Assembly: GCA_035495615.1 (NCBI GenBank)
Contig: DATJFP010000099.1
Location: 1-57,886, forward strand
Direction: 5' to 3'
Length of the DNA stretch: 57,886 nt
Origin: Verrucomicrobiia bacterium
GTDB taxonomy: Bacteria > Omnitrophota > Omnitrophia > Omnitrophales > Aquincolibacteriaceae
Positions 2-21,766 of the stretch are shown in pieces; positions within the stretch are counted from its first letter, which is position 1; each line of letters starts with the position of its first letter. The notes under the pieces were generated by a model. That model was not told the DNA's origin, did no database searches, and saw nothing but the letters and a program-made list of their open reading frames with translations. The position numbers and the translations under genes are program-made.

Positions 2-3000
2 CGGCCCGCGGTCGCCAGGATCAACACGACCGAAGACGAAGCCGCCTTTTATTACGGGCTTCCCGAAGAATTCGTCTACCGGGTGGATGCGGCCGAAGAC
101 TTCAAAGAGCAGGGGCCCCGCGGAGAAATGCGGGCCGCGGCGGAGGAAATCCCGGCGCCGGCGTCGCACCGTTCGAGCGGCATCGACTTCACCCGGACCC
201 AGCCCGTTTCCGCGACGGGGAAGAACAACGCGTTTTTCGGGGAAGAAGCCCGTTCCTCGCAGAAATCATCCGACCAGATCGAACGCGAGCTCGACGAAAT
301 GGTGGGTGCGTCTCACGAAAGAATGGGCCGCGAATACGGCTTCCTTGCGCGGGACAAGTCGCCGGAGATCACGAGGGTTTACGAATCCTTCGACCGGCTC
401 GTGGCCGGCTACAACAGACTGGCGCAAATGCAGGGCCTGCCGCTTTACCGCGGAAAGCTCTTCATCGTGGATTCCGAAGACGTGAACGCGTTCGTCTACG
501 CCGGCCATGACGACGTGTATTTCCACATGGGCATGCTGCGGGCCATGGAACGCTACACGCAGCTTCCCGGTGTTACCGCGAAAATGACCGAAGAGCTGGT
601 GGCCAGCGTGCTCGCGCACGAACTCAGCCACGTCATGCAGCTCAGTTCCTACGAAGGGCTCAGTGTCGCCAAAGGACGCGGCCGGGAGGAATCGGCGATG
701 TTCGCGCTGAAGCGCAATGCGGAGTACGACGCGGACCGCAACGCGATCACGGTCATGACGCTCGCGGGGTATTCGCCCCGCGAAATGGTGACAGCCCTCG
801 AATTTCTCGCGCGCATCACCCCCGAGAGCACGGCCGAGCATTCCCTGTCCGATCATCCGCACCCGAAGCTCCGGCTGCGCGAATTGCAGCGCCACATCCA
901 GGATGCGCGGCTTGTCACCGCGACCTGGGGGCTTGCGCTTCATCCCTTCGAGCGGCCGGGCGCTTTTACGGATTTGAAAACCGGGCACCTGGCGCCGTCC
1001 CTGCCGAACACCGCGGCGCAGCTCGACGAGGCCGCCGGCCGCGTGTCGTCGGCGCGTGAGCTCACGGAAGTCGGCCGCGTCGCGGACGAAAAGGCAAGGC
1101 TCGGGCGCGTGCGCAAAATCGCGGACACGCCTTCGGGCCGCGACCTCTTTTCTTTCTTCGTGTTCGCCGGCAACATGATGAACGCGGCCAACGATCTCGC
1201 CATGCGGCTTGCGTACAACGAAAACCGGGAAAGCGCGCCCGCCATCAAGATGGACCCGATCGGCGCGCACATCCTCGAAGACCTCAAGCCCGAAGACCTC
1301 GCGCTTCTCACCAAAGACAGCGGCGATCTGACCAGTAAGGAAAAAGACAAAATCGCGGAGCTTTGGAAAATGACGGCGGCGGGCGCCGCACGCGTCCTGG
1401 GGGTCATGAAAACGCAGCTGCTTTCCGGCGAGACGACGTCTCAGATGACGGCGGAACGGCGCGAGGCCGCCATTAAGGCCCTGACGCTCATGGCGGACCA
1501 CTTCAAACGGGCGACGTCCGTGTTCGCCAATCATGTTTGGGATACGGCCGCGGAACCGCCGACGCAGGCCCAGATCACCGACATGTTCCTGGACGGCCGC
1601 AGCGCCGAAGCCATCCAACTTCTGACGCGGGTTCCGGTGGCCGTTTACGCGACGGTGGGGCGCACGACGCTGGATGAAGCCGCGAGCGTGAGCCGGAGCG
1701 GCGTGACCGTGAGCGGCCAGCTCGAGCGCGGGGATTCCGCGTTTTACCGGCAGAATGTAAGCCTGGATTCGACGGCCACGCCGGCCGACCGCCAGCGCGC
1801 GCTGGATGCGGCGCGCTACGCGTGGATGGCGGAAGTCATGACGAGCGTGGTCGGCAAGGTTCACGCCGGAATTTTCCGCGAGAAATGGGCCGACAAGCTC
1901 GAATCGCTGCTGCCGGAGCTGCCTGCGCCGCTTACCACCGGAGAAACGGCCCGCGACGGAGAAACGCTGACCCAGGCCCGCGCCGTGACCCGCGGCTTTT
2001 TCATCAACAACAAAGTCAGCCGCGGCAAGGATGCGGATTTATTTTTCGCCTACGCGGGGCCGGTCCTGCTGCCCGAAGCTTCGCAGATCCGTTCTCCGAT
2101 CTACCAGGCTGAAAAAGGACTCCGCGATCCGACGCTGGTGCTGGGGCGCCGGGAAGGCCTGGAGCGCCAGGACCCTTACTTCGAGATGATCAACAACGCC
2201 GACGTTCCCGGCGAAATTCTGATCCGGGAATGGGAAGAGCGGGGAAGCGCCGCGGGCTTTGATCTGGCCGAACTCTTCCGGCGGCACCTGGCTCCGTACA
2301 GCCGCTCCTTCCGCAAAAAAATCATTTCGGAAATGATGTATTCGATGACGCAGTCCGTCCGTTACGACCAGCGCCGCGCCGGAATCCTTTTCGACATCTT
2401 CCTGGAAAACGTGGGTTCCGCGGATGCCTACGCGCTGATGAGCGAATACCTGTCTGTCGTGGAGCCTTCCGAGTTCAAGAGCACGCGCGTCTCGAAATCC
2501 AAGGAGGCGTCGCTGGAGTGGCTTCGCGAGATCGCGGATACTATCAAGAACAAGCTGCTGCCCATGCGCGCGCCCGGCGGCAACATGATCAGCGCCACGC
2601 TGGCCGAGCATTATCTCACGGCCGTGACGGCCATCCTCGAGCTCGAAGGGCGCACGCCGGAATCCCTCACGCCGGACGAGGCCTTCGGCATCATCGAGCC
2701 CCTGTCCCGGCACGTGCTGCTTTCCATGGAGGTCACCAAGCCGCAGACGGGCATGCGGGACCCGTACGCCAAGGAAGAGCACGATCCCCGCCTCGGCCTT
2801 TATTCGCGCGAGTGGACCGCGCCCAATGACGTGATGCCGGCCAAAATCGATACGGCCAACATCGACGAAATGCCGGTGGCGTTTTTCAAAGGGCCTTCTT
2901 CGGTTTTCGCGCAGCGGCTTTTTTCGCAGACGCTGAAGCTGGACCGGAAGAAGCTGCAGCAGATCGCGCGGAACCAGACCGATCTCCTGGAAAACGCTTC

Positions 3001-6000
3001 GAACTCCCCGGTGCGCAAGGTCGGAAGATTTGCCGTGCCCCGGATCGGCGAGGCCGCCGGTTTCCTCACGCTGCTGAATGGAACCATCGCCGCGAAAATC
3101 GCGGCGGAATTGCTTTCGCTTCCCGCCGCGAATTTCCAGAGCGGGCTCCGGTTCACGGCGGAAAAACAGCCCATGGCGACGCAGCGGGTCAATGCCGAGG
3201 TCAAAAAACTCACGTTCGAGGAGTTCGCGGCGGACATCCAGCGCAGCGCGGCGGGACGCGAGGACGCGTTTTATCCGGCTTTTTACCGCGCCTTGTCGGA
3301 AGGATTCGTCAAAGTCAACACGCTGCTGGGCGACGAACGGGAAGGCAGCAACCTGTTTTTCTGGCGCCTGGCGGCCGGCCGTCCGGACGATTTCCCGCTT
3401 TACCGGGACATGATGGACAGCCCGCCCAACGTCAATACCAATCCGGACCTGCGCAAGGCGCGCCCCAATCCGGAATCGTACCTGCGCGCGGCCTCGCGCT
3501 TTTTACCGTTCCGCGGCTCCAAAGACCGCCTCTTTAAAGCTTATCTCCGGGCGCATGCCGGGGACCGGCAGACGCTGCTGCGCGCAGACCGCCATCCCGA
3601 CCCTGCGGCCATGGTGGGGCAGCTTGCGGAAACTCTCGACAGCGCCACGCTCTTCCGCGACGGCTTCCTCGACCTGTGGGAGCGCCAGCTGTTTCCGGAG
3701 ATGCATGCCAATTCGTCCATCACCTCCTCGCGCCTGGCCGACCTGCCGAACGATTTCAGCGACGAAAAGGCCGACGACTTCATGTCGGACAGCATCGTGG
3801 AAGTGCCTTTGGAATGGGCGAACCTGGCCAAGACCGATTTCCGGAAATTCGACAGGGCGCGCGGGCAGAAGCTCCTGGAGTTTTATGCCGCGGCCATCCC
3901 GCTGATCATGGACCCGCAGCGCCAGGCGCGCTTCGGCGCGACGGCCATGAAAATCTGGAAGGCGCTGAATCCGGACGCGGGATTCCAGGAAGAAGCGGGC
4001 GCCATCCAGCGTTTCCTGCCTCAGCCTTCGCAATTCCGGGACGAGGCGCTGGACGCGCTTTTCAACCATCACGACATTCCGAGCGTCAGTGTGCCGCACT
4101 CCGCCATCGTGCAGGCGCAGCGGCTGTACTCGTATTACCACAAGCTCGAATACGATGCGGAGCTGACGAATGCGGACGCCCTGTACCAGGCGCTGCAGAG
4201 CCTGCTGAGCCCGTCTAGCCGCCAGGATCGCAAGGACCTTTTTCTGTGGATGCTCTCCAGTAAATCTCCGGTGCCTTCCGTGGTGACGGGCGCGCGCGAA
4301 AAGTACAACGTTGTCTTCGACGATCTGCCCGAGCACCGGCGGTACGCACCGAAATCGGTGCAGCGGGAAATGGTGCTGAACATGTTGACCGGCGAGAATG
4401 GACTTCTGCGGCCGCGCTCGCAGCAGGACGTGGAAACACGGCGCGAATTCCTGGGCTCGCTGTTCGACCATTTCTTCCCCGTGTCGGAAAACCGCCCGCA
4501 CAAGTCCGGGATTTCCAACGAGGTGCTCGCGCTCGTGCGGCGCATGTTCATCCTTTCCATGGAAGCGCATGACGAAGGCCGCGGCGCCGCGATCATCCAG
4601 GACCTGATGGAAATGGAAAACCGCCTCGAATTCATGCCTTTTGGGGAAAGGCTGGCCGTCCTGCTCGGGACGCTCGGGCCGGTCGGCATCAAGATCGGGC
4701 AAATTCTCTCCGAAAACGAACGGCTTGTCCCGAACGCGCGGCTTCGCGAACAGCTCGGCCATTTGCGCGGCAATGCTCAGGAGCTGAGCAAAGTCGCGGT
4801 CCTGGAAGCGCTGCTTGCCGCGGGCCTGAGCCTCGACCGCATCCGCCTCGGCCGCCGGCTGGGCTCGGCGTCCATGAAACAGGTGCATGCGGGGCAATAC
4901 CTGGACGACAACGGCGTCTGGCAGGACGTGGTGTTCAAAGTGCTGCGGCCCGCGCTCACACGCACGGTGGAAAGCGACCTGAACGTCGTGGCCGCGGTGC
5001 TCGCGGACGCCGAAGTGCTGGCCGGCATCCGGACGCTGATGCCGGAATTTTCTCCGGACGCGATCGTCGCCAAAATCCGCCTCATGATCGAACAGGAAAA
5101 GAACCTGGTGCTCGAAGCGGAAAATACGGACAAGCTGGACCGCGCCGTTCGTTCCTATGCCGGGCCGTCGCGTCTCGGGGCTTTTGTGCCGGGAATCCTC
5201 GTCCATACCGAAAGCGTGATCGTCGAACAGCGGGTCCAGGGCCTCGAGATGAGCGCCTGGCCGAGCGGAGGATTCTTCGAATCCTGGCGCGTGGGACGCG
5301 AGCTGGGCCAGCGCGGCATCGCGCGGGACGCGGCACGCCAAATTCAGAAATTGACGCGCGGGGCCATCGTGAAAGAACTTCGCCGTCGCTTCCTGGACCA
5401 GGTTTTCGTGCAGGGCGTTTTTCACGCGGACCCGCACGCGGGCAACATCATGGTCAGCGCGCAGGGGCTTGCGTTTATCGATACCGGATTAATCGGAACG
5501 CTGAATCCGGCCCAGCGTGAAGGCGCGAAAGAACTGACCAAGGGCATTCTCCTGCAGGACGAAGACCGCACGCTTGCGGCCGTGCGGGCCATTCTCGCGG
5601 CCGAAGGCGCGGCCATGTCCGATCCGGACCGCACGCGCGAGGCCGTGCGCCGCGCGTTCAAAACCCATGGCCGCGATCTCGCGGGCCTCTTGAACAGCCT
5701 TGCCGCGATCCTTGCGCGCGAGGGAGGCGACGCAGGCAAAACCGTCGCGGCCTTCCTCAAAGCGTTCACGCAGGGCCTTTGGTTCATGCCGATTTCTCTC
5801 GGGACGCTGCGAGACATTGCCGCGGCCACGGGCATGACTTCCGGCGAATTTTACCGGGCGGCATGGTCGACAGGAGTGTCCAATGCCGTCGCGTTTCCCG
5901 GCCGCGTGCTTTCGGAAGCCGGGAAAGGCCTGGTCAACGGGTGGCGGGCCGTGCAGGAAAAGGCCGCCGAGATGTTCCAGCAAAGGCGCGGCCTCACGCT

Positions 6001-9000
6001 GATGCGGCGGACGCAAAGCGGGCTGCGCGGCGTGCTGGGAGTTTTCAGAAAGTCCGCCGAAGAGCCGGCGCCGCAGCTGCTGAAGAACAACATTACGCCC
6101 CAGGCGAAACTCTTGCCGGTGCCGGCGGCGGGGCAGACTGTTTTCAAGCCCGCGGCATCGCTCAAAATCCAATATTCCAAGGTCACCCTCGGAGAAGTCG
6201 CCGAGGATTTTCCAATTCCTGAGGGCGTGCGCGTGGACCAGCTGCACGATGCCCTGGGTTTGTTTTCGAAATATTATGCGGCGGTTTCTTCCCTGGACGA
6301 GAACAGGGAAGGGGCATGGACCGTGCCGTATCCCAGCGAGAATGAGTACAACATGCTGCGTTCTGTCCTTCTCGCGCAGGGCGCGGCGCTCGGCAAGCCG
6401 CCTTCCAGCGTCTCCCAGAAACGGTACATGAGCCGGGACATCGTGGCGCGCACCCTGACCGCGAGGCAGCTGGAAAAACTCGGAGGCGCGGAGAACTTGA
6501 TCCTGGCCGGCTTATTTCGTTTTACCGCGCCCCAGGCCGCGGAAGCCGCGGACCGGCTTACGGACCTCTACCTGAAAGGGCTGGAGTTCGAAGACGCGCT
6601 GAACCCGCTCGATTCGCCGGAGGGCACGCCGCCTGAGCCGCGCGCCAGCGCGCTCGAAAACAATTTTACCGTGACGCCGAAGGCTAAACCCAGGGACTGG
6701 GCCGACGATGACCGCAAAATCGCGCTTCCCACACGGCCGGCGCAAAACGTCCGGTGGATCCAGCAGAAAGAAGAAGGCGAGGTTCCCGAATTCGCGCTGA
6801 CGCCGAGCCTTCGCGGCCAGCTCGCGCAGTATGCCGACATGCTGGACCTGCGGCAGCCGGGAACCGCCGTCAACCTGTTCGACCCGGGCACAGGACAGCC
6901 GCAATCGGGCATCGTGGCCATCCGCGAAAAGTACAGCCGCGACGAAAACGCGCTCACGATCCGCATCGAAGTCCACCACGAAAGCGGGCAGTCAGTCGTG
7001 ATGCGTTTCACCGACAAGGGCTATGCCGAATTCATCAAGCAGAACAGCCGCTCGAGGCCCGCGGCTTTCGAGGTCACGCGCTATGCCGCGGCCTCGGCGC
7101 GCGCCGAACTGCGGCAGGATGAAGGGCTGTCCGTCCTCACGGACGAAGAAGCAAACCAGAAAGCTCAGCCGCGCCCGCTGGACGCGTCCGAGCTGTCCGT
7201 GCGCGATCAGATTCTTGCCATCAGCCGATATTGGGCAGAAAAACTGGGCGTGTCGCTTTTCAGGCAGACCGACTACGACAAGGTCATCAACCGGGACACG
7301 CAAAAATTGAGCCGCGTGGCCCTGGCCGGGAACAAAGTGCTGGGATTTATTCTCGTGACGCCGCTCAAAGATGGGCCTTCGATCCATTGGGATGCGTCGG
7401 TGAGCGCGAGGCCCTTCGGAGGAACGGCGGTTTACGGATGGAATTTCATGAAACATCCGGCCAATGCCAACGCCCGTTTTGGAAGAGACATGTTCCACGA
7501 GCTTGCGAAAAATATCCTGGCCGACAACGCGGTCCTGGACAAGCGTTTCGTGGGAGACGTGGAAGACATCCCGTCCAACCAGCCGCTCCTGGCTTATTAT
7601 CGAAGGCTCGGTCTTGAGCGCGTGGGGGAAATCGAAGAGGGCGGACGGCGGTTCATCCGCGTGGCCGTGGATGCGGACACGCTGCTTCGCAATACCGCGC
7701 CCGTGCGCGCGGAACTCCGGTCGGATTCGGCCGTGCCCGCTCAGGCGCCGGACGTGTCGCAGCGCCTCCCCGAGGCCTTGCGCGGCGTGCCGCTGGCCTT
7801 GGATCAGGGCTTCTGGAGCAACTTCCGCGGCGAATCGTGGCTGGCGCAGCTCTTCGAAGGGGATTTGTCATGGATGAAAAGCCCGGGCATCCAGAGGTTC
7901 CTCGGCGATCCTGCGCGCGCGACTTACGCGCTGCTGGACGACGGCGAGCGGGATGTTTTCCGGCAGCATGCGGGCGAACTTTATGAACGCATGCAGCGGC
8001 TCACGCTCGAGCATTTCGATAACGCCATGGGCTCCGGCGATGAAAATCTTTTTCTTATGCTTCTGGCCACGGGACGCGACACCTTTTTCCTGGAGAACGA
8101 ACAGCGGGCCGAAGATCTGGACCGCGCCGCCGCGGCTGTAGGACGCGCCTTCCAGGCGGTGCAGGCGCGCCACCCGGGATCGGTCCTTGTCGGCATCGGC
8201 GCTTATCCGGCCTGGATCTTGAAGACGCTCGAACTGACCGAGCCGTCGCTCGGCTATGGGATCCGGGAGCTCGCGTTTTCCGGCGACGACGTCCCGTCGC
8301 CGGAAGCTTTGGAACAATACGCCTCTTACCTGGACAACGAAGTCCGGCTCGACCTCGAAGCGATCGTGAAGTCGAATGCGAAGATCGTGCTGGCCGACAC
8401 GGTTCTCCAGGGCCGCGCGGCCAAAGTCATCATCAAAGACGTCTTTGCCAAGATTCTCGCTCGCCGTTCCGGAATGTCCGAGGCCGAGGCGCTGGCCGCA
8501 CTCAACGGTAAGATCGAGCTGATCAACATCAGCGACGACAGTTTCACGCGACCCGAAGCGCTTCAGTATCTGGAAAGAGAAGGCATCCGCATTCCGTCCA
8601 CCGTGGTCAATGTCGGGCGCCAGCTGCAGACTTATCTGGACCACAATCCATTTGCCGACCGCCTTGTCCCGTATTACGCCGCCGGCCAATGGCTGAAGCC
8701 TCCGGCGAAAGGCGTTTCGATCATGGGATCGGTCATGCAATTTCTCCTGATGGACGTCCTGATCGAAAGAGGACGCGCGGAACTGCGCTCGCAGCAGGCC
8801 TCCACGCCCGCGCCCGGCGCCTATTCCAAAGAGTGGTACGCCGCCCAGGGCATTGACTTCCATTCGATCGTGACCTCGCGCGCCAGCGGAAATTATCAGG
8901 ACCGCCACGGCACGAGGGAAATCAAGGTGGAAGGCATTCCGCACGGCAAAGGCCGCCTGCTGTTCGTGGCCGACGGCTTCGGCGGCAGCGAAAAAGTTTC

Positions 9001-12000
9001 CGAATGGGTCCGCGACCGTCTCATGAATACCGATATTTTCGAGGAAATGCTGAAGCGCAATCATGGAGATCTGCAGAGGGCGCTCCTGGAACTGATTCTG
9101 AATCTGGGGCAGGAAGCCGCCGATGTCGTGGCGCAGCTGGGCATTCCTGACGGAGACAAGGCCCCGGGGTCCACGCTTTCGATCCTCTACCTGCCTTCGG
9201 ATGAAGCCGCGGCCTATACCGCGGTGCTGGGGGATTCGCCGATCGTGATTCTCGACCAGAACCGCGACCGCATTTTCAGTTCCGTGAAGCAGTCGATGCG
9301 GAACGTGCTGACTCACTTCCTGGGCGGCAGCTCGGCCTCGAACCCCAAGCATCATTCGGCCGCCATCGACCGCATCGACATTCCGGACGCGGCCTCTTTC
9401 TTCCTGCTGGCAAGCGACGGTATTTATAACCGGGACGAGACATCCTACACCGTCAATCCCGGCACGCCGTCCGAAGCGTCTTATCATGACCTGCTGCAGG
9501 CCTCGGGCATGCATTTCGAGACCCAGGATGCTTCCCAGGTTTCCGCGCAGGCCGTGGCCGAGTTCGCGCGCAATACCATCGGAAGCATCGACGATATCTC
9601 CGTGCTGATCCACGAAGCGAAATTGCCGGAAGGCCTTGCGCCGCAGGCCCCGGTGCCGGGCGCTCCGACCGCCCGCGAGATTTTCCTGAAATTCGAGGCC
9701 CTTAAAAACGAAGCCATGAGCAAGAAGATTTCAAACCTCAAAGCCGAGGCCGAAGAATTGCGGCGCCTCGCCGGCCAGATCCGGGCGCTTGGAGATGAGA
9801 CCCGGTATAAGGATGCGGCGCGTCTGGTGGAAGTCCGCGCGGCGCTTTTCGAGGCCGGAGAAAAGGACGATCCCGAGGCGGAGGTCCAGGCGCTCTTCCG
9901 CGAAGCCCAGATGCTCGGTTCTCCTCTAAGTTTCCTAGAAGAATTCGAAAAAGTCCAGGCGAGCGTTGTCGGCCAGGGAAAGGCCGCAAAAATCGTGAAA
10001 GGAATTGAGGACAAAAACGCGGCCATCACCGCGGACACGACCCTCGCGCAGCTCGTCGAGCAGACGGCGGGCTGGATCGTGACGGGAAGTGTCAGCTTCA
10101 GCAAGGACCAGCTGGTGCGTCTCCATCAGATCTGGGAGGAGGCTTTCCGGCCCCGGATCAATCTTCCGGAAATGACGCGCCAGCCCGTGGGCGCGGCCGA
10201 GGCCGGATACCTTGTCGCGGGGCAGGTCCTGGAAGATGCAGACGGAAACATTTACGTGGTCCGTTCCGTTGTCCCTCGGGCTGACAACACAAAAGCCTAT
10301 GTCCTCCAAGATTCCCCGATATCAACGAAGAACATCAGCGAGGCCATCGCGGCGACGCAGGGATTTACCGTCATTGTTCCTCCCGGCCAGAAAGTCGACT
10401 TGACCGAGTTCGGCAAGCTCGCGCGTGATCTTCTCGGCGGAAAGCAAGCGGAGTCCCAGCGCAATGAGACTTTGGCCGAAGCTCTGGCCCGCGTACAGGC
10501 CCGGGACTACTCCGATTTCAAGCTCGGAAAAGGGGCATCGATGGCAAGTGAAACCCAGATCCTGGATCAGTTCGTCGGGCTGATGCAAAAGGCGGGGGAA
10601 GTCTTCGTTCAGGGGGACGACGCGAAGTCCGCGGCAGAATTCGAGAAAGTCCTGAGTTTCTTTGAATTCGCCGTCCACCTGTCGGGCATCGAAAATGCCG
10701 TCATTCTCGGCAAGCTCCTTACCGCAGTCAAAAAGGTGCCGCCCGCGGAAAAATTCAAGGGGACGTGGAGCCAGCGCCTTTTTGCCGCCATTGCCAACGG
10801 CCGTGAGGGGGAGCCGGTCGACTCGCGCGTCGAAAGCTGGCACGAATATCTGGATACCTCCAAGGTCAGGATCATGTTCGAAGGCGCAACCTTTAAAGCC
10901 AAGCCCGAGCTCCGGACTTCGAGTCCTGAAGGACAGAAGCAAGCTCGTGCCGAGCTCAGGGCGGAAGAGCCGCACCGGGAAGTGGAAGTGGAGCTCGATT
11001 CGGCGGCCTTTATCCAAGAGATGCGCGCGGCCTGGCGCGCGGAAGCGGTCCCTGTGGCGGAGCGTAAACGGCTGACCAGCCTGGCCGAAAGGCTGCGCAT
11101 CACGGTGAGCGTGCCGCAGAGCCAGACCCAGAATCCCACGCCGGAAGACCTGAAGAAAATGCCCGCGTACATCATCCTGCGGGATCTTTTCAGCCCCATC
11201 CTGCCGGAACAACGCGAGGAGGGGAAACCGGTTTCGCGCCTGCTGAACCTGTTGTCCAATGCGCGGAACGAGCCCGGCCTGCCCGAACCGCAGTCGCTGC
11301 ATTACCGCGTGCGCGAATTCGGGATGGAATATCTCGGCGAGGGCATGCACCGCGTCGTGGACCAGATCGCAGTCACGGAAACCAACGGAAAAACAACGGC
11401 CTTTACCGCCAGCTATTATCACGAGGTGAACGGCGACGAAGTCCAGCGCGCGGAAAGCGAACAGGACGACCTCAAGCTGATCTTCAACGAGCCGGCGCTG
11501 CAGGGTCTGCGCCCCCACTTCCAGAGGCCGCTGGGCGTTTCGCTCATCATGGGTGAAGAGGAAAACCGCCTGGTCGCCTACAAGCTTTACAAAGAAGGCC
11601 GCGCTTACGTGGATCTCTTCGGCCAGTATTTGAGCCCGGCGCAATTCGGCGAAGCGGAAAATGCCGAGGCGCGGCTGCTGCGCGATCTTTTCAGGCAGCT
11701 TGGGACGCTGGCCGCTCGGGTTGCCGTGGATTCCCAGGGCGGCTATCTGCCGGACAACCATCTGGGCAACACGGTCGCGAAGGTGAGCGATTTCAAGGCT
11801 TCGGGTGTCGCGGTCGTCGACTTCGAAGGCGGGCTGATACGCACGAAAAAATTGGCCCAGCGCGCGGATCTGGTCCTGGAGCCGGTGCTGTCGCTGCGGC
11901 GCCGCATGATCATGGCCAAAGCACCCGAATCAGACCGGCAAAAAACGCAGCCGCTCGCGGTCGCTTATATCACCGCGTTCCTGGCGTCGTTCTATGAGGT

Positions 12001-15000
12001 GAAAGCCGCGGACGTGCAGCCGCTCGTCGAGTCGGCCTATGCCGCCGCGCGCGTGGCTCAAGCCGAAAGCTCCCAGGATTTCGACAAGGCCCTGAAACAG
12101 GCCTTCAACACCGTGGACGTCAGGCTTGCCGGGACCCAGCGGCTCAATCAACTGACAGGCCAAAAATCCGAATTGCGCGCGGAGCCTCCCAAGGATACGG
12201 GCGTATTCGTAGGCAAAAGCAGGCTCCGCTATGCTCCGGACCGCGCCGCAAAAAACAGCGAGATTCAAACCCCGCAGGAAATCGAGGACGCGCTGCAGGC
12301 TTTGCAGGACAGTCTGATCGATCAGGAATACCCGCGGGATTCCGACCTCTCGCGCAACCGGGAGATCCGCGATTACCTGAACCGCCATCAGGGAGGCGTG
12401 GCTGAAGTAGCCATTTTCCTCGCGGATATCTACGGCCTTGATGCCGAGGAGACTCAGCTGCTCGGTGTGGCCGCGCTCTTTCACGACATCGGCAAAGTCT
12501 TCATGCCTTACAGCACCGTGTTCAGCGAACGGCCGTTCAACACGCTGACGGAAAAAGAAAAAGTCAACCTGGCCGGGGAAATGAGCAATCACGTTCTCGA
12601 AGGCGTGCTGATGCTCAACGAGTTCCGCGCGACTCTCGCGAATAAGATCGGACAGGACCGGATGGCGCAAATCATCGACGCCGTGAACGACCACCACGAA
12701 AACTGGAACGGCACCGGCTATTTCGAACGTTCCGGCGAGAAAGGCGAGATCAGCCGCTGGGGATCGCTGCTCAGGATCGCGGATACCGTCCAGGCCATGC
12801 GCGAGGAGCGCCTGTACCAGACCGAGCAGGACCGCAGCGCCAACCAATATGGGGACGGCCGGTATTATCCGGAATTCATTTTCAAAGTGCTGCTGGGGCC
12901 CGCCTACGAAAGGCCGCGTGTCGAGGCGTTTCTCCGGAAAATCGCGCGCGGCGACGACGCGGCCCGCCAGCTTGCCTACGCCCTGCATTTCGAAGGAAAA
13001 GAAATCGACCGCTTCATCAAGGCCGCCGCGGCCGCCCTGAACCCCGCCCCTAAGTCCGAATTGCGGCAGGTGGAAGCGGAATCTCCCGCGGGTAAAGTCA
13101 TGCTTACGCTCGACAACGGCGGCATTCTCGAAAATATCCACCAATTGGGAGTGCAGTACAACGTCGCCGTGGCGTTCGCGGGCGGCACGGCGCGCCGCAT
13201 GCTGCTCGGCAAAGATCCCCTGACGCGCCATTCGGATGTCGACCTCATGATCATGCCGTCTCCCGGCGATCCTCACGAAGTGGACGACCGTATCAAGCTT
13301 TTTCAAAAGGCGTTGTCCGAAAAGTATCCGGACTTGAGTTTCGATATCCTGAATTTTACGAAGGAGCAAAGGTTTTCGCCGCCGTTCAATCGTTTCGTGC
13401 AGGAAAGACCCGCGACGCTCGACCGGTTTTATGCGGTCAAAGGGACCCGCGGCTGGTCCGCCGGCGATGAAGCTCGCGGCGCCTACTTTTCCGACCTCCG
13501 GGAGGGCCGGCTTCGCTTTGTCGGCGCCACCCCCCGCAACCACTTGAATAATGACACGCTGCTGCGGTTCATGCGCCTCGCGGCGGAATATCCCGAGATG
13601 AAGATTGATCCGGATTCGTGGCAGGAAGTGCTGCAATTTGTCGCGGAAACGCATCCGGACAACAAATTTCAGAAGCTGTCTGCATCTCTGGACCAGTTCT
13701 TCGGGCGTCTTGACATGGACTTTGTTTCACGCAAAGGCTCTCCGGAATTCAAGACGCTCGTCAAAATCTTCAAGCACGCGCGTTCCCCGCAGGATGCCCT
13801 GGATGTTCTCAAGCGGGCGGGAACGCCGGAAAGAAATCTTGCCACCATTTTCGGCCAGTACGTGGACTTGGAGGCTCTGGCCGCCCTGTACCAGAAGGGG
13901 ATGCCGGACCCGGAGCCGGCGGCCTTCGACCGGATTTTCAAAGGAGATTTCCTGCAGCATCCCTACGCGCGGCCGGGAATAACGTCCAAGGAGTTTGCCG
14001 TCTTCAAGAGCGGCGACTTGTTTTCGGGCAAGACAGACGAGAAGTCGCTCCGCGTGAGGCAGGCCCTCGCCGTTTTCCTGGAAAGGGAAACGGGCGCCTG
14101 GCTGAAGAAGAGCGACGACCTCCGCGCGGATGAAAGGGCTTTTTACCGGTTTGAATTGACTCTGATCATCAGCGGCCTTCGGGATATGTGGTCAGGGCGC
14201 GAAACCCGGTGGCTGCTCAATCTGAAGCCGTATGTTTCCGAGGCCTTCTACCGGCATCTTGAAACTCACACCGGCCAGATCGCGGAAGCCATCGACAAGG
14301 AAGTTTATGAAAATCTTCTTGATTATTACATGCGCTCGGGATGGGAAGGCGCGGCGGCGCAGCCGGGACAGCGGCAGGAATTGCGCGCGGGCACGCAGGA
14401 TTCGCGGCCGCAAAACCTCAAGCAGGCGCAGGCGCTTTTCACCGAGGCCGAGGGAATCGATTTGATGTCGGAGGAAGCCGGGGGACGCGTCGGGCGGCTG
14501 AAGGAGATCGTCGCGGAAATGAAGAAGCTCGCGCAGTCGGGCCGGATTCTTGAAATGGGCCGCATCCTCGAAATCCGCGTGGAAGCTTATGACGCGATCG
14601 CGGCCCTCGATCTCAACAAGATCGCACGCCTCTATGGAGAAGCCATTCAGCTAGGCGCCAAACAAAGAGTCCTGGATGAGATTTCCTATCAAAACCGGCG
14701 GGCTCTGGCCGGCATCAATAAGAAAGAAAGGGCCGAGGAGGCGGCCCAGCCCGCGGTCAAAGCCAAGCCCGCGATCGAAGATCCCGCCGTTTTCCTCGAG
14801 GAATGGAATGGCATCCGGGGGCATGCCGCCGAACCCGCGGTGAGTCTTGCGGACCTGGTCGCGGAAATGGACGCCTGGCAGAAAAAAGTGCTCCAGCATC
14901 CTCATTTCAAGGACGGCGAAGTGCGCGGCCGCATCGAGACAGAATGGCAGGAAGCGCTGGCCGCCAAAATCAGCCAGCCCGGTTACACGCGTCAGCCGGT

Positions 15001-16444
15001 GGACGAGACGATTCTGCCGGCGATCCAGCCCCGGGACGTGCTCGTCAATCCGAGCGGCAGGATTTTAATCGTGATGAGCGTGGAAACCCGCAAGAGCGGG
15101 CTCATCTTCTTCCTTCGCGACAGCCAGTACAATTTTGACATGACGCAGGCCGCGAAGCTGGCGAGCGGGTACGACCGCATCATTCCGGAGCCGCGCGGCG
15201 AATTGCGCGCGCAGGAAGCTCAGAAAGAACCGGCCGAAGGGAAAGCCCCGCAGCCCGCGGCCGTTCCCCGGCAGCAGCAAGCGCCCCGGAACGAATTGAG
15301 GCCGGCGGCGCAGGAACAGGACCTGCTGCCGCTTTTCCTGCCGGGGACCGATGTGGCCCAGGTGGTGGGGGAAAAACTGAGGCAGCATTCCGGCATCAAG
15401 CAGATCGAAGAGGAATTGTCGGCCAAGGCAGGCCTGGAACGAGACAAGGCGCAGGAACTCGTCGCGGCATTCCTGGCGGAAGTCAATCAGGCCATGACGG
15501 TCACGCCCACGCTGGACGAACTGGTGGAAAAAGTTTTCGAAGGCCGCTTCACCAATCGCCTCGAAGCCCTGCTGCGCGAGAAGCGCGACGAAATGGCAAA
15601 GACGAGTCCCGCGCGGGCCCTGGACGCGTCCGCGGCGCGCGCCTTGTCCGCGCAGATCGTGCCTCAGCTCGTGGAACGGCTGCGGGGCGTGATCAGCTCC
15701 GGGCTCATGGCCGGCGAAGTGCTGGCCGGAGGACGTCCCGGAATTTCGCTTACGGCCGCGACGCCGGAAGTGCGGTTCCTTTTGAACGCGCGAGATCCGG
15801 CCTTTTACAACGCGGCTTATCAGGAACTCCGGCGGAAGAATCCGTCGCTGCCCGCGGGCAACCTGGTTTCGGAAACCTTCGGCGCGAACGAGGCGTGGTA
15901 CCTGTCCGCGGATTATCTCAAGGCGGGCACGGCTGCGGAAGAGGCTTTGGTCAAGCGCGACCTGCAGGAACAGTTCGACGCGCGCGGCGTTCCGCTCACC
16001 ATTGGCTACACGATCGGCACGCCGCAGGAAAAGATCGCGATCCAGCTCGCCAAGATTTTGTCCAAGGCGCTCGCGGTCGGGCGCCGGTTCGGCGAGACCA
16101 TGCAGTCGCGCAAGCTGGGTTACGACCTGAAGACCGCGGAAAATCCGCGGCTGCTCATGACCATGGACGAGCATCTGCAGCTGTCGACCCGCGACAATCT
16201 GGAAAAGGCCAAGGCCATGGTGGGAAGCGAGGGCTATATCAGCGCCGAGACGCTTTCGCGGAAAGAGTACCTCATGCTCGCGGAGCTGGTCTTCAATTCC
16301 GCGTACCTCTACAAGCAGCTGAAAGAAAAGGACGGCTACGCCTTCGGCGTCATGGACGAGGAAGTCTTCAACGGCTTCATGGCCTTCCTCCGGGACCTCG
16401 GCAATACCGAAATTGCCCGCGAGCGCGTGAAGGCCGCGGCGTAA
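2..16444 (+). CDS. Giant multidomain protein with [K/R]xELR linkers (5' end outside window)
   Basis: This is the 3' part of a gene of at least 5480 codons. The frame is open to the left edge; a GTG at 83 is available but the reading frame continues upstream of it, so the true start is outside. Visible domains in order are: an M48-type metallopeptidase (HELSH at 617-631), a long helical region, a UbiB/ABC1 kinase-like domain (4640-5900), a GNAT-like domain, a possible phosphoribosyltransferase fold, a PPM phosphatase, a repeated unnamed module, a kinase-like fold, an HD-GYP-like domain, a nucleotidyltransferase, the second module copy and an unrecognised C-terminal domain. Segments are separated by [K/R]-x-E-[L/M]-R motifs at 119, 7100, 7706, 8774, 10901, 10946, 12164, 13052, 14372, 15194 and 15287. 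No membrane segment or cell-wall anchor is obvious. A role as a polyprotein or multi-enzyme assembly is inference. The reading frame is intact throughout, with no frameshift seen. Confidence 0.93.
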   Translation, partial: RPAVARINTTEDEAAFYYGLPEEFVYRVDAAEDFKEQGPRGEMRAAAEEIPAPASHRSSGIDFTRTQPVSATGKNNAFFGEEARSSQKSSDQIERELDEMVGASHERMGREYGFLARDKSPEITRVYESFDRLVAGYNRLAQMQGLPLYRGKLFIVDSEDVNAFVYAGHDDVYFHMGMLRAMERYTQLPGVTAKMTEELVASVLAHELSHVMQLSSYEGLSVAKGRGREESAMFALKRNAEYDADRNAITVMTLAGYSPREMVTALEFLARITPESTAEHSLSDHPHPKLRLRELQRHIQDARLVTATWGLALHPFERPGAFTDLKTGHLAPSLPNTAAQLDEAAGRVSSARELTEVGRVADEKARLGRVRKIADTPSGRDLFSFFVFAGNMMNAANDLAMRLAYNENRESAPAIKMDPIGAHILEDLKPEDLALLTKDSGDLTSKEKDKIAELWKMTAAGAARVLGVMKTQLLSGETTSQMTAERREAAIKALTLMADHFKRATSVFANHVWDTAAEPPTQAQITDMFLDGRSAEAIQLLTRVPVAVYATVGRTTLDEAASVSRSGVTVSGQLERGDSAFYRQNVSLDSTATPADRQRALDAARYAWMAEVMTSVVGKVHAGIFREKWADKLESLLPELPAPLTTGETARDGETLTQARAVTRGFFINNKVSRGKDADLFFAYAGPVLLPEASQIRSPIYQAEKGLRDPTLVLGRREGLERQDPYFEMINNADVPGEILIREWEERGSAAGFDLAELFRRHLAPYSRSFRKKIISEMMYSMTQSVRYDQRRAGILFDIFLENVGSADAYALMSEYLSVVEPSEFKSTRVSKSKEASLEWLREIADTIKNKLLPMRAPGGNMISATLAEHYLTAVTAILELEGRTPESLTPDEAFGIIEPLSRHVLLSMEVTKPQTGMRDPYAKEEHDPRLGLYSREWTAPNDVMPAKIDTANIDEMPVAFFKGPSSVFAQRLFSQTLKLDRKKLQQIARNQTDLLENASNSPVRKVGRFAVPRIGEAAGFLTLLNGTIAAKIAAELLSLPAANFQSGLRFTAEKQPMATQRVNAEVKKLTFEEFAADIQRSAAGREDAFYPAFYRALSEGFVKVNTLLGDEREGSNLFFWRLAAGRPDDFPLYRDMMDSPPNVNTNPDLRKARPNPESYLRAASRFLPFRGSKDRLFKAYLRAHAGDRQTLLRADRHPDPAAMVGQLAETLDSATLFRDGFLDLWERQLFPEMHANSSITSSRLADLPNDFSDEKADDFMSDSIVEVPLEWANLAKTDFRKFDRARGQKLLEFYAAAIPLIMDPQRQARFGATAMKIWKALNPDAGFQEEAGAIQRFLPQPSQFRDEALDALFNHHDIPSVSVPHSAIVQAQRLYSYYHKLEYDAELTNADALYQALQSLLSPSSRQDRKDLFLWMLSSKSPVPSVVTGAREKYNVVFDDLPEHRRYAPKSVQREMVLNMLTGENGLLRPRSQQDVETRREFLGSLFDHFFPVSENRPHKSGISNEVLALVRRMFILSMEAHDEGRGAAIIQDLMEMENRLEFMPFGERLAVLLGTLGPVGIKIGQILSENERLVPNARLREQLGHLRGNAQELSKVAVLEALLAAGLSLDRIRLGRRLGSASMKQVHAGQYLDDNGVWQDVVFKVLRPALTRTVESDLNVVAAVLADAEVLAGIRTLMPEFSPDAIVAKIRLMIEQEKNLVLEAENTDKLDRAVRSYAGPSRLGAFVPGILVHTESVIVEQRVQGLEMSAWPSGGFFESWRVGRELGQRGIARDAARQIQKLTRGAIVKELRRRFLDQVFVQGVFHADPHAGNIMVSAQGLAFIDTGLIGTLNPAQREGAKELTKGILLQDEDRTLAAVRAILAAEGAAMSDPDRTREAVRRAFKTHGRDLAGLLNSLAAILAREGGDAGKTVAAFLKAFTQGLWFMPISLGTLRDIAAATGMTSGEFYRAAWSTGVSNAVAFPGRVLSEAGKGLVNGWRAVQEKAAEMFQQRRGLTLMRRTQSGLRGVLGVFRKSAEEPAPQLLKNNITPQAKLLPVPAAGQTVFKPAASLKIQYSKVTLGEVAEDFPIPEGVRVDQLHDALGLFSKYYAAVSSLDENREGAWTVPYPSENEYNMLRSVLLAQGAALGKPPSSVSQKRYMSRDIVARTLTARQLEKLGGAENLILAGLFRFTAPQAAEAADRLTDLYLKGLEFEDALNPLDSPEGTPPEPRASALENNFTVTPKAKPRDWADDDRKIALPTRPAQNVRWIQQKEEGEVPEFALTPSLRGQLAQYADMLDLRQPGTAVNLFDPGTGQPQSGIVAIREKYSRDENALTIRIEVHHESGQSVVMRFTDKGYAEFIKQNSRSRPAAFEVTRYAAASARAELRQDEGLSVLTDEEANQKAQPRPLDASELSVRDQILAISRYWAEKLGVSLFRQTDYDKVINRDTQKLSRVALAGNKVLGFILVTPLKDGPSIHWDASVSARPFGGTAVYGWNFMKHPANANARFGRDMFHELAKNILADNAVLDKRFVGDVEDIPSNQPLLAYYRRLGLERVGEIEEGGRRFIRVAVDADTLLRNTAPVRAELRSDSAVPAQAPDVSQRLPEALRGVPLALDQGFWSNFRGESWLAQLFEGDLSWMKSPGIQRFLGDPARATYALLDDGERDVFRQHAGELYERMQRLTLEHFDNAMGSGDENLFLMLLATGRDTFFLENEQRAEDLDRAAAAVGRAFQAVQARHPGSVLVGIGAYPAWILKTLELTEPSLGYGIRELAFSGDDVPSPEALEQYASYLDNEVRLDLEAIVKSNAKIVLADTVLQGRAAKVIIKDVFAKILARRSGMSEAEALAALNGKIELINISDDSFTRPEALQYLEREGIRIPSTVVNVGRQLQTYLDHNPFADRLVPYYAAGQWLKPPAKGVSIMGSVMQFLLMDVLIERGRAELRSQQASTPAPGAYSKEWYAAQGIDFHSIVTSRASGNYQDRHGTREIKVEGIPHGKGRLLFVADGFGGSEKVSEWVRDRLMNTDIFEEMLKRNHGDLQRALLELILNLGQEAADVVAQLGIPDGDKAPGSTLSILYLPSDEAAAYTAVLGDSPIVILDQNRDRIFSSVKQSMRNVLTHFLGGSSASNPKHHSAAIDRIDIPDAASFFLLASDGIYNRDETSYTVNPGTPSEASYHDLLQASGMHFETQDASQVSAQAVAEFARNTIGSIDDISVLIHEAKLPEGLAPQAPVPGAPTAREIFLKFEALKNEAMSKKISNLKAEAEELRRLAGQIRALGDETRYKDAARLVEVRAALFEAGEKDDPEAEVQALFREAQMLGSPLSFLEEFEKVQASVVGQGKAAKIVKGIEDKNAAITADTTLAQLVEQTAGWIVTGSVSFSKDQLVRLHQIWEEAFRPRINLPEMTRQPVGAAEAGYLVAGQVLEDADGNIYVVRSVVPRADNTKAYVLQDSPISTKNISEAIAATQGFTVIVPPGQKVDLTEFGKLARDLLGGKQAESQRNETLAEALARVQARDYSDFKLGKGASMASETQILDQFVGLMQKAGEVFVQGDDAKSAAEFEKVLSFFEFAVHLSGIENAVILGKLLTAVKKVPPAEKFKGTWSQRLFAAIANGREGEPVDSRVESWHEYLDTSKVRIMFEGATFKAKPELRTSSPEGQKQARAELRAEEPHREVEVELDSAAFIQEMRAAWRAEAVPVAERKRLTSLAERLRITVSVPQSQTQNPTPEDLKKMPAYIILRDLFSPILPEQREEGKPVSRLLNLLSNARNEPGLPEPQSLHYRVREFGMEYLGEGMHRVVDQIAVTETNGKTTAFTASYYHEVNGDEVQRAESEQDDLKLIFNEPALQGLRPHFQRPLGVSLIMGEEENRLVAYKLYKEGRAYVDLFGQYLSPAQFGEAENAEARLLRDLFRQLGTLAARVAVDSQGGYLPDNHLGNTVAKVSDFKASGVAVVDFEGGLIRTKKLAQRADLVLEPVLSLRRRMIMAKAPESDRQKTQPLAVAYITAFLASFYEVKAADVQPLVESAYAAARVAQAESSQDFDKALKQAFNTVDVRLAGTQRLNQLTGQKSELRAEPPKDTGVFVGKSRLRYAPDRAAKNSEIQTPQEIEDALQALQDSLIDQEYPRDSDLSRNREIRDYLNRHQGGVAEVAIFLADIYGLDAEETQLLGVAALFHDIGKVFMPYSTVFSERPFNTLTEKEKVNLAGEMSNHVLEGVLMLNEFRATLANKIGQDRMAQIIDAVNDHHENWNGTGYFERSGEKGEISRWGSLLRIADTVQAMREERLYQTEQDRSANQYGDGRYYPEFIFKVLLGPAYERPRVEAFLRKIARGDDAARQLAYALHFEGKEIDRFIKAAAAALNPAPKSELRQVEAESPAGKVMLTLDNGGILENIHQLGVQYNVAVAFAGGTARRMLLGKDPLTRHSDVDLMIMPSPGDPHEVDDRIKLFQKALSEKYPDLSFDILNFTKEQRFSPPFNRFVQERPATLDRFYAVKGTRGWSAGDEARGAYFSDLREGRLRFVGATPRNHLNNDTLLRFMRLAAEYPEMKIDPDSWQEVLQFVAETHPDNKFQKLSASLDQFFGRLDMDFVSRKGSPEFKTLVKIFKHARSPQDALDVLKRAGTPERNLATIFGQYVDLEALAALYQKGMPDPEPAAFDRIFKGDFLQHPYARPGITSKEFAVFKSGDLFSGKTDEKSLRVRQALAVFLERETGAWLKKSDDLRADERAFYRFELTLIISGLRDMWSGRETRWLLNLKPYVSEAFYRHLETHTGQIAEAIDKEVYENLLDYYMRSGWEGAAAQPGQRQELRAGTQDSRPQNLKQAQALFTEAEGIDLMSEEAGGRVGRLKEIVAEMKKLAQSGRILEMGRILEIRVEAYDAIAALDLNKIARLYGEAIQLGAKQRVLDEISYQNRRALAGINKKERAEEAAQPAVKAKPAIEDPAVFLEEWNGIRGHAAEPAVSLADLVAEMDAWQKKVLQHPHFKDGEVRGRIETEWQEALAAKISQPGYTRQPVDETILPAIQPRDVLVNPSGRILIVMSVETRKSGLIFFLRDSQYNFDMTQAAKLASGYDRIIPEPRGELRAQEAQKEPAEGKAPQPAAVPRQQQAPRNELRPAAQEQDLLPLFLPGTDVAQVVGEKLRQHSGIKQIEEELSAKAGLERDKAQELVAAFLAEVNQAMTVTPTLDELVEKVFEGRFTNRLEALLREKRDEMAKTSPARALDASAARALSAQIVPQLVERLRGVISSGLMAGEVLAGGRPGISLTAATPEVRFLLNARDPAFYNAAYQELRRKNPSLPAGNLVSETFGANEAWYLSADYLKAGTAAEEALVKRDLQEQFDARGVPLTIGYTIGTPQEKIAIQLAKILSKALAVGRRFGETMQSRKLGYDLKTAENPRLLMTMDEHLQLSTRDNLEKAKAMVGSEGYISAETLSRKEYLMLAELVFNSAYLYKQLKEKDGYAFGVMDEEVFNGFMAFLRDLGNTEIARERVKAAA
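350..900 (+). other. Domain: M48-family zinc metallopeptidase-like
   Basis: The segment contains the zinc motif HELSH (617-631) in a hydrophobic helix, followed about 30 residues later by EYDADRNA (starting 722), which matches the third-ligand ExxxD helix of M48 peptidases. A DHPHPKLRLREL stretch near 855-885 resembles the 'HP....R' element that closes M48 domains. The catalytic residues look intact. As the only protease recognised in the giant protein, it is the obvious candidate for cutting the linkers, but nothing in the sequence proves that. Confidence 0.8.
4640..5900 (+). other. Domain: UbiB/ABC1 (AarF)-type atypical kinase-like
   Basis: The UbiB-specific KxGQ motif is present in GIKIGQILS (about 4683-4710). 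It is followed by a degenerate nucleotide loop (LGSASMKQVHAG, near 4860), a catalytic loop FHADPHAGNIM (about 5418-5450) and a metal-binding FIDTGLIG (about 5474-5497). These are hallmarks of the ABC1/ADCK/UbiB family, normally a membrane-associated protein for ubiquinone synthesis. A UbiB domain inside a giant chain without adjacent ubiquinone genes is unusual; its substrate is unknown. Confidence 0.85.
7115..7705 (+). other. Domain: GNAT-like N-acetyltransferase
   Basis: This 197-residue segment lies between two RAELR linkers. It has a VALAGNKVLGFILV strand pair followed by a C-terminal NQPLLAYYRRLGLERVGE element near 7580-7630, which matches the 'N..a..fY.klGF' end of GNAT folds. The acetyl-CoA pyrophosphate loop is not obvious, so activity is uncertain. 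Confidence 0.5.
7721..8773 (+). other. Domain: possible phosphoribosyltransferase-like fold
   Basis: A 351-residue segment between two RAELR linkers. The strand-loop SVLVGIGAYPAWILKTLE (near 8180) and the later KIVLADTVLQGRAAKVI (near 8384-8434) have the spacing and look of a PRTase fold, the second resembling a PRPP loop (hydrophobic strand, acidic residue, T/G loop). The loop is not canonical, so this is a weak structural guess. Confidence 0.3.
8860..9640 (+). other. Domain: PPM (PP2C)-type protein phosphatase
   Basis: All main PPM motifs are visible in order: RLLFVADGFGGSE (metal-binding Asp and GG, about 8957-8990), GSTLSILYL (about 9169), YTAVLGDSPIVIL (about 9215), FFLLASDGIYNR (about 9400-9430) and SIDDISVLI (about 9583-9610). 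The metal-coordinating aspartates appear conserved, so a Mn/Mg-dependent Ser/Thr phosphatase activity is plausible. Confidence 0.85.
9661..10400 (+). repeat. Internal protein module, copy 1
   Basis: A helical region followed by a mixed alpha/beta region that is repeated in diverged form at 14411-15190. Shared anchors, copy 1 versus copy 2, are ARLVEVRAALFEA / GRILEIRVEAYDA, LFREAQMLG / LYGEAIQLG, LAQLV / LADLV, TRQPV / TRQPV, GNIYVVRSV / GRILIVMSV and VLQDS / FLRDS. I do not recognise the module. Similarity is at protein level only. Confidence 0.65.
10961..12163 (+). other. Domain: protein-kinase-like/phosphotransferase fold
   Basis: A 401-residue segment between ELR linkers. A glycine-containing start (FGMEYLGEGMHRVVDQIAV, about 11310-11370) and a catalytic-loop-like YLPDNHLGN (about 11747-11772) followed by VAVVDFEGG (about 11807-11833) match the D...N and D-F-G-like elements of kinase-like phosphotransferases. 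The beta-3 lysine is not clear. The substrate is unknown. Confidence 0.5.
12179..13051 (+). other. Domain: HD-GYP-like phosphohydrolase
   Basis: A 291-residue segment between KSELR linkers. It carries FHDIGK (about 12479-12496), a downstream NHVLEG histidine (about 12587), DHHENWNGTGY (about 12689-12721) close to the HHE..DG.GYP signature, and RIADTVQAMR (about 12773). This is the HD/HD-GYP metal-dependent phosphohydrolase pattern with GTGYF in place of GxGYP. A cyclic-di-nucleotide substrate is possible but not shown. Confidence 0.75.
13067..14371 (+). other. Domain: nucleotidyltransferase-like
   Basis: A 435-residue segment between linkers. AFAGGTARRML (about 13170-13203) followed by HSDVDLMI (about 13231-13254) is the GG...DxD signature of the polymerase-beta-type nucleotidyltransferase fold, as in minimal NTases or CCA/poly(A) polymerases. 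The rest is helical and unrecognised. Confidence 0.6.
14411..15190 (+). repeat. Internal protein module, copy 2
   Basis: Second, diverged copy of the module at 9661-10400, with the same order of helical then alpha/beta parts and the identical TRQPV core. It occupies a segment of its own between linkers at 14372 and 15194, so its boundaries define the module better than copy 1 does. Confidence 0.65.
15302..16441 (+). other. C-terminal domain of giant protein, unrecognised
   Basis: The last 380 residues after the final RNELR linker. They are largely helical, with a compact motif region LTIGYTIGTPQEKIAIQLAK (about 15995-16053) and a tail ending in VKAAA. No sorting signal, hydrophobic tail or known catalytic motif is visible. 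Confidence 0.4.
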
Positions 16445-16521: not shown

Positions 16522-17805
16522 TCATCCCCTGAAAAAAATCCACCCAATCACGGCAAGGATCGGCAGCAGGATGGGCAGGCTGAAATTCAAAACGTACGCG
16601 AAGAAGCTCGGCGTTTTGACCTTGGCCTGATCGGCCATGGATTTAACCAGGAAATTGGGTCCGTTTCCAATGTACGTCATGGCCCCGAAGAAAACTGAGG
16701 CTACGCTGATGGCCTCTATATAGATAGGATGCTGTGCCAGGAGATAAGCCACTTCATGGCCCGCTGTCCCATGAACGGCCGCGCCGCCTTCCGCGGCGAA
16801 TATCCCGAGCGCCGCGCTGAGAAAATTCAAGTAGGTGGGCGCGTTGTCGAGGACGCTCGAAAGAATGCCGCTTCCCCAATAGAATTGCCCGGGGCTGTGG
16901 ATGCCGAGCTGGTCCGCGTAGCGTTCCAGCCATTCCAGCGCCGGAATCATGGTGGCAAAAATACCGACGAAAAGAAAGCCGACTTCTTTGATCGGCCCGA
17001 AACTGAAATCGTTGCTTTCGTGAATTTGTTTGGAAGTCATCTTGTAGGACAGCGCGGCCGCGGCGAGCATGATCGTCTCGCGCAGGAAAACCGGATGGTT
17101 CACGAAAACCGACCCGAGAATCATCAGGAGAAAAAAGACGTTTTGCCCGCCTTCGAATTTCCATTCTTCACCACGGCCCGTTTCCTTCGCCTGGACGTCC
17201 CGCGGGGCGCGGGCGAAATTGACGGCATCGAAGACAAAGAACACGGCCAGGAGAATGCCAAGTGCCAGCAGCCAGATCGGCCAGATTGCATTCATGACCC
17301 AGAAAAAAGGAACCCCTTTGAGATACCCGAGGAAGAGCGGGGGATCGCCAATGGGGGTGAGCCCGCCGCCCACGTTGCTTACGATAAAAATAAAGAATAC
17401 GACGTGAAACGCGGTGAGGCGGTATTTATTCATGCGCAGCCAGGGGCGGATCAGCACCATGGAGGCGCCTGTCGTGCCGAGAACGTTCGCCAGGACCGCG
17501 CCCACCATCAAAAAAAGCGTGTTGGCCAGCGGGGTGGCTTCGCCTTTGACCCGGATGTGGATGCCTCCGGACACGACAAAGAGCGATCCGATCAGGGAAA
17601 TGAAACTGAAATATTCATGCGCCGTGTGGAGAAGCGGCGACGGGTTGCGGAGCTGGAAAAGGTAATGCAGCACGACGATCAGACCGAGGCCGCACGAAAG
17701 AAAAACAAAGTTCTTTTCCCACCAGTGTTTCTGCGCCAGGGGAAGAATGGCGATGCAGCCGAGAAGGGTAACAAACGGAAGAGCCCAGAGAAGTTCGATA
17801 AGCAC
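16522..17805 (-). CDS. Sodium:proton antiporter/ion-transporter superfamily membrane protein
   Basis: A polytopic membrane protein of about 427 residues with roughly ten or more hydrophobic segments. It resembles the ion-transporter superfamily (NhaD/CitMHS-type): paired conserved elements such as GAVLANVLGTTGASMVLIRP and SNVGGGLTPIGDPPLFLG in the first half, and SSVLDNAPTYLNFLSAALG plus FFGAMTYIGNGPNFLVKSMA in the second half, give the typical inverted two-domain arrangement. It probably exchanges cations or carboxylates for protons across the inner membrane; the substrate is not decided by sequence. I chose the GTG at 17805 because an AAAGGTG ribosome site lies just upstream. A longer ATG start at 17874 would overlap a TATAAT box at 17864-17869. 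It is a single gene, convergent with the giant gene and divergent from the glycosyltransferase at 17910. Confidence 0.82.
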   Translation of the reverse strand: MLIELLWALPFVTLLGCIAILPLAQKHWWEKNFVFLSCGLGLIVVLHYLFQLRNPSPLLHTAHEYFSFISLIGSLFVVSGGIHIRVKGEATPLANTLFLMVGAVLANVLGTTGASMVLIRPWLRMNKYRLTAFHVVFFIFIVSNVGGGLTPIGDPPLFLGYLKGVPFFWVMNAIWPIWLLALGILLAVFFVFDAVNFARAPRDVQAKETGRGEEWKFEGGQNVFFLLMILGSVFVNHPVFLRETIMLAAAALSYKMTSKQIHESNDFSFGPIKEVGFLFVGIFATMIPALEWLERYADQLGIHSPGQFYWGSGILSSVLDNAPTYLNFLSAALGIFAAEGGAAVHGTAGHEVAYLLAQHPIYIEAISVASVFFGAMTYIGNGPNFLVKSMADQAKVKTPSFFAYVLNFSLPILLPILAVIGWIFFRG

Positions 17806-17863
17806 AAGAACACCTTTGTCGACGAGTTGATGAAAACAGGTGCAAAAACAGGGATGCAGCCGT

Positions 17864-17869
17864 ATTATA
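17864..17869 (-). promoter_or_regulatory. -10 box for the antiporter gene
   Basis: A perfect TATAAT on the minus strand, with TTGTTT 19 bases upstream as the best -35. It would start transcription near 17857, about 50 bases before the GTG at 17805, and argues against the upstream ATG. Confidence 0.4.
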
Positions 17870-17909
17870 GGCAAAACGTCCCGAACGCAAACAACTTTTG
17901 CGAGGATCG

Positions 17910-21759: not shown

Positions 21760-21766
21760 GGGCCGG

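Follow-up and report, generated by a model that had tools for sequence, protein, structure and literature searches.

A giant, motif-punctuated gene of Omnitrophota and its possible product, an exported polyprotein

The window analysed here is the whole of a 57,886-nucleotide stretch of forward-strand DNA, contig C99 (DATJFP010000099.1) of the assembly GCA_035495615.1, a genome of the Omnitrophota with 3.16 Mb in 106 contigs. Its left part is occupied by the end of a giant gene at 2..16444 (+), the frame of which is open across 5,480 residues and continues beyond the left edge of the window. The window begins with the same 141 bases with which contig C3 ends, and the frame spans all 11,330 bases of C3. 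The encoded protein is therefore at least 9,210 residues long, and the window holds its C-terminal 5,480. No overlap with the other contigs of this genome was found at the left end of C3, so the N-terminus was not recovered; the gene may be the continuation of the giant on C14, C49, C63 or C10. Residues 59-2373 of the window part are collinear (33.6%) with residues 3058-5409 of a paralogue on contig C14, and two relatives, with 15,709 and 23,964 residues, are complete within single long contigs; these observations make a chance joining of separate genes very unlikely. A first-pass annotation of the window had described a single chain of more than 5,400 residues, incomplete on the left, and both points stand.

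Profile searches support three domains of the window part well (all features given here are on the + strand). The M48 metallopeptidase lies at 410..670 (E 3.8e-11), with HELSH at residue 206, and confirms the peptidase of the first-pass annotation, as does the HD_5 match at 12383..12826 (E 1.4e-13; HDIGK and HHENWNGTGY) its HD-GYP-like domain. One of the two kinase-like folds that it proposed is an ABC1/UbiB-type atypical kinase at 4859..5572 (E 4.4e-27), which carries KxGQ (KIGQ) and HxDxHxxN (HADPHAGN); the other is a catalytic string, DNHLGN, at 11753..11770 (residue 3918), without profile support. The proposed phosphatase and nucleotidyltransferase correspond to weak matches below the curated cut-offs, to PP2C at 8963..9280 (E 0.003) and to MdcG at 13124..13294 (E 0.0048). 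The nucleotidyltransferase-like module is poorly folded in the AlphaFold model, and no relative of it was found among 46 other genomes of the order. The acyltransferase-like domain lacks profile support: the module at 7115..7705 resembles the GNAT type in appearance, with neither a Pfam profile match nor a significant match in the PDB. Sequence searches of the PDB with two modules gave nothing significant. Two of the seven proposed domains thus have weak matches and two were recognised by a motif or by appearance.

The C3 part of the giant adds a weak match to histidine-kinase-type ATPases and a further HD domain. Neither the window part nor the C3 part contains a hydrophobic helix at the threshold used, in keeping with the earlier statement that membrane anchors are lacking, and with no adhesin domains recognised by Pfam and no hydrophobic anchors in these parts, the protein does not class as adhesin-type. 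The earlier suggestion that the chain may be a store of effector-type enzymes fits this mixture of enzyme domains. What it overlooked are a short motif in the linkers, a conserved C-terminal tail, a second giant gene in the window and a family of such genes across the phylum.

The tripeptide ELR recurs at the module borders of the window giant. It belongs to a five-residue motif with the general form R-[SA]-E-[hydrophobic]-R, which in this genome reads [KR]xE[LM]R. Eleven copies are present in the window giant, as opposed to 0.6 in shuffled sequences: RGEMR at 119..133; RAELR at 7100..7114, 7706..7720, 8774..8788 and 10946..10960; KPELR at 10901..10915; KSELR at 12164..12178 and 13052..13066; RQELR at 14372..14386; RGELR at 15194..15208; and RNELR at 15287..15301. 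Among all open reading frames (ORFs) of at least 150 residues in the window and contig C14, the motif occurs in giants only, one of them being the second giant of the window, with its start at 54158.

The motif is roughly 10 to 70 times commoner in the giants than composition predicts. The 17 giant pieces of this genome contain 174 copies against 10 expected. A family-wide comparison was made on 80 named Omnitrophota loci, with the string GGFH as a proxy for the conserved N-terminal module (N-module) described below; a few false carriers of the string make the contrasts conservative. Strict motifs number 230 in the 177,802 residues of ORFs with the N-module, where 3.4 would be expected, and 9 in the 165,344 residues of other ORFs of less than 1,500 residues in the same loci (2.5 expected), some of these ORFs being truncated ends of giants. 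All expected counts derive from composition or from shuffles, and the relatives compared share ancestry. When gapped tripeptides were searched without prior choice, R.E.R, RS..R or RSE ranked first in most motif-rich giants (for example, R.E.R at 48 versus 2.8). The R-E-R pattern is not at the top in some giants, that of the window included, which is partly due to K/R variation at the first residue.

Across 21 giants, the flanks of 353 motif copies are rich in proline, serine and alanine and poor in hydrophobic residues. The spacing from one motif to the next ranges from about 10 to over 4,000 residues. At the DNA level, the copies are mostly encoded by codon strings that differ from one another (37 of 44, 69 of 75 and 60 of 69 distinct), which indicates that the motif is selected as a peptide.

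A conserved C-terminal tail, an amphipathic helix ending in ...EIARERVKAAA, is encoded at 16352..16441; the -[AS]A ending is a feature of the family. Thirty-six of 40 giants of at least 2,000 residues end in [ASM]A, compared with 11 of 452 other ORFs. Counted ungapped from the C-terminus, the tail has hydrophobic positions at -22, -19/-18, -15 (89%) and -5 (82%), and its last seven residues include no proline or glycine; the set was picked by the last residues, so that positions -1 and -2 are not independent in it. A tail profile without the last two residues gave a leave-one-out median of 8.4 bits for the giants and -22.2 bits for the other ORFs. The highest-scoring of the latter lie at locus ends or bear the motif and look like truncated giants.

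The second giant starts at 54158 and runs off the right end of the window (54158..57886). A signal-peptide-like N-terminus and the N-module are encoded at 54158..55690, the first motif (RAELR) follows directly after the module at 56120..56134, with the cargo after it, and a second (RPELR) lies at 57683..57697. Its visible part closes with GPARADIGAHVDY, which resembles a GHMP-kinase signature. Any N-module of the first giant would lie beyond the recovered sequence, past the end of the contig; in this genome the module is carried, with a predicted signal peptide, by the second giant and about 27 further genes.

The N-module is a conserved region of about 550 residues, preceded by a signal-peptide-like N-terminus in members with a known start. 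Its conserved elements are DAH, EG, GxED and a late GGFH, in which the histidine and the glutamate are invariant. There is no Pfam match to it. The invariant His and Glu, the GxED and the late GGFH, which resembles GX2H, recall the EreA/ChaN/TIKI-TraB-like superfamily. A model of the module compared with the PDB gave erythromycin-esterase-like folds as the best plausible matches, which fell short of significance (E 0.27 and probability 0.35 for the best relevant one). The module is thus possibly EreA/ChaN/TIKI-like.

About 28 copies of the N-module occur in this genome, in frames of up to 23,964 residues. Across the phylum, 143 of 285 genomes have it, and so does every genome sampled from the class to which this one belongs. 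When named genomes were searched with a 31-row alignment of the module, 80 loci were retained, all in Candidatus Omnitrophota, in which the family is apparently large and undescribed. The modules downstream of it are mutually unrelated enzymes, mostly with intact catalytic residues. The 23,964-residue frame (C88:18416-90307 of this genome) has about 19 predicted hydrophobic helices, mostly in mid-chain, the window giant being soluble by contrast. Three family giants lie consecutively on one contig of relative G014 (C7:15002-74998).

The motif is placed consistently with respect to the modules. Its first copy typically lies 55-180 residues C-terminal of the GGFH of the N-module and preceded GGFH in only one of 230 cases. 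None fell inside 25 recognised domains, where 7.5 would be expected (P 0.0006), and 21 fell inside homology blocks against 38.5 expected. In the window giant, the HD-GYP-like domain is folded in the AlphaFold model and flanked by two motif-bearing linkers, both KSELR copies lying in low-confidence stretches (predicted local distance difference test (pLDDT) below 50). The stretch ahead of the first motif of the second giant likewise has a pLDDT below 50. A UDP-glucose dehydrogenase of G014, with its catalytic cysteine present, starts 3-4 residues past an RSELR.

The form of the motif differs between lineages. Linkers of relatives carry RSELR (G014), R[SA]E[AV]R (G041 and G028) and similar forms, and the identity of position 4 between giants is 0.76 within a genome and 0.24 between genomes (permutation p 0.0005). 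In three genomes, including that of Omnitrophus fodinae, the R-E-R form is absent and is replaced by A-x-S-[LM]-G, present in 33 copies (about 1 expected) with 31 distinct DNA strings. The first copy of this form lies 74-185 residues past GGFH in every N-module ORF examined, as with the R-E-R form, and several giants of this clade also have the C-terminal tail. A genome-specific position 4 and a wholesale switch of the motif are the traces to be expected of a trans-acting reader whose specificity has drifted or been replaced.

Taken together, the signal-peptide-like start, the N-module, the selected linker peptide, the intact enzymes and the shared tail are consistent with an exported polyprotein that undergoes cutting in its linkers, and on balance this is what the gene appears to encode, as judged from sequence. 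The Sec machinery would export the chain out of the cytoplasm. A dedicated protease would then cut at R-[SA]-E-x-R, or at A-x-S-L-G in the one clade, releasing single enzymes and freeing the N-module, and the C-terminal helix would act as a sorting or maturation signal. More speculatively, the modules may work in the cytoplasm of another cell, a partner or prey, and the polyprotein would be a means of packaging and delivering enzymes; this is the probable working place because many of the modules need ATP, NAD, phosphoenolpyruvate or acyl carriers. A broader proposal is put forward with somewhat less than even confidence. It holds that, in a class of Omnitrophota, much of the extracytoplasmic enzyme arsenal is produced in the form of exported polyproteins, the longest having about 24,000 residues, with a lineage-specific protease cutting a five-residue code that has been switched completely at least once, and with a near-universal C-terminal sorting tail.

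Several observations weigh against an exported, cut polyprotein. Neither cleavage products nor a protease have come to light, and export relies on the predicted signal peptide of relatives, as the N-terminus of the window giant itself is missing. Some N-module genes have no motif, and those in four genomes of other classes are shorter frames with no clear motif. A few motifs fall within homology blocks, and in some cases the segments between motifs hold several domains. The peptidase families tested also offer no obvious universal reader. Peptidase_C11 (clostripain) was found in 0 of 56 genomes and the caspase-like peptidase family C14 in 3 of 56, so that neither is likely in this role. The tail-specific, or C-terminal processing, family S41 is common in bacteria; it too is unlikely as a universal reader, being found neither in this genome nor in about half of the others. 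The N-module itself is a candidate for the protease, yet it also occurs in other classes without a clear motif.

The best alternative to cleavage is a chain that remains whole. The giant would be an uncut secreted scaffold, and the linker motif would offer a surface, coat or chaperone protein a docking site at many points along the chain. A motif specific to each clade would then track the binding site of the partner, so that the position in linkers, the genome-specific flavour and the switch to A-x-S-L-G are explained equally well. The proposal of coats or adhesins for giant Omnitrophota proteins, made in an earlier account (PMC10066038), points the same way. The modules are, however, enzymes with intact catalytic residues and not adhesins, and the motif consistently parts the N-module from the cargo, for which a cut is the simpler explanation. 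A docking scaffold is accordingly regarded as unlikely, though as a serious competitor.

Less probable again is a multi-enzyme machine whose single chain stays uncut and works in the cytoplasm or periplasm, with linkers that serve only as flexible spacers. Intact enzyme domains in one frame would suit such a machine. Spacers, however, would not call for a strict peptide of five residues, preserved at the protein level and distinct from genome to genome; no pathway logic connects the modules, and the nucleotidyltransferase module has no counterpart in 46 other genomes of the order.

A third explanation takes the motif to be a mobile or recombinogenic DNA repeat, translated in frame, which spreads into linkers and shuffles modules; it is improbable to a still greater degree. 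A near-identical DNA repeat, ELRASSAEGVLGAGLKGARPELR, does occur in a few linkers of C14, C3 and C99 (residues 3634-3653 of the window giant), and G041 has repeated linkers (KGDRQLL...MPVPFL). Most motif copies, however, share only the encoded peptide and have no fixed flanks, and their codon diversity largely refutes a DNA repeat. The in-frame linker repeats seen at the DNA level are possibly elements like repetitive extragenic palindromic (REP) sequences that are tolerated in linkers. Last, an assembly artefact in which separate genes were fused in silico, named by the first-pass annotation as a ground for refuting it, has next to no probability and is already refuted as an explanation for the giant family, since, although the genome is a draft of many contigs and the gene spans a contig overlap, the C14 paralogue is collinear, complete giants lie on single contigs in independent assemblies and the 141-base overlap is in frame.

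Elsewhere in the window, 48186-52512 holds a compact haem-synthesis cluster, in which a HemD-HemE fusion precedes a flavin amine-oxidoreductase-type gene and ferrochelatase. Long ORFs without a Pfam match lie near glycosyltransferase genes at 16729-17943, 20845-21849, 21905-23464 and 25845-28388.

Giant ORFs of Omnitrophota are known, including that of a 39,678-residue protein of Candidatus Velamenicoccus archaeovorus (Seymour et al. 2023, PMC10066038). The giants of that account resemble the present ones in phylum, in size, in having few recognised domains and in the host-associated lifestyle of their carriers. As described, they differ in their transmembrane helices, adhesin domains and poor conservation, and the passages considered speak of no N-module held in common, no motif in the linkers and no C-terminal tail shared by the giants. 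The function of such genes is an open question (PMC10066038).

MARTX toxins are likewise giant secreted chains with several enzyme modules, which are released by cleavage between the modules. They have flanking repeat regions and an internal cysteine protease that is activated by inositol hexakisphosphate (InsP6) and cuts at leucines (PMC3153235). The Pfam scans made here covered the main giants rather than every giant sequence, and parts of some giants lay outside them; within that scope no MARTX-type cysteine protease domain was among the matches, and no flanking glycine-rich or RTX repeats were recognised.

Viral polyproteins are alike in form: they too join many enzymes in one frame, set apart by a short cleavage-like motif that recurs along the chain and varies with the lineage. 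The Omnitrophota giants differ in being cellular and apparently exported, with about 28 loci per genome, no encoded protease identified and cleavage that is proposed. No description of the giant architecture or of the punctuation code, and no report linking Omnitrophota with polyproteins, was found in the literature searched, the coverage of which excluded preprints and most subscription journals.

With the shared architecture and the readable code, a giant frame can be read as a list of modules whose borders are predicted. Such borders make the expression of single modules practical, and the exact protein termini that they predict can be checked in existing proteomes. The motif and the tail point to a reader, either a protease or a docking partner, and to a C-terminal signal. 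If the cleavage is real, these bacteria would possess a cellular polyprotein strategy on a scale undescribed in the literature searched.
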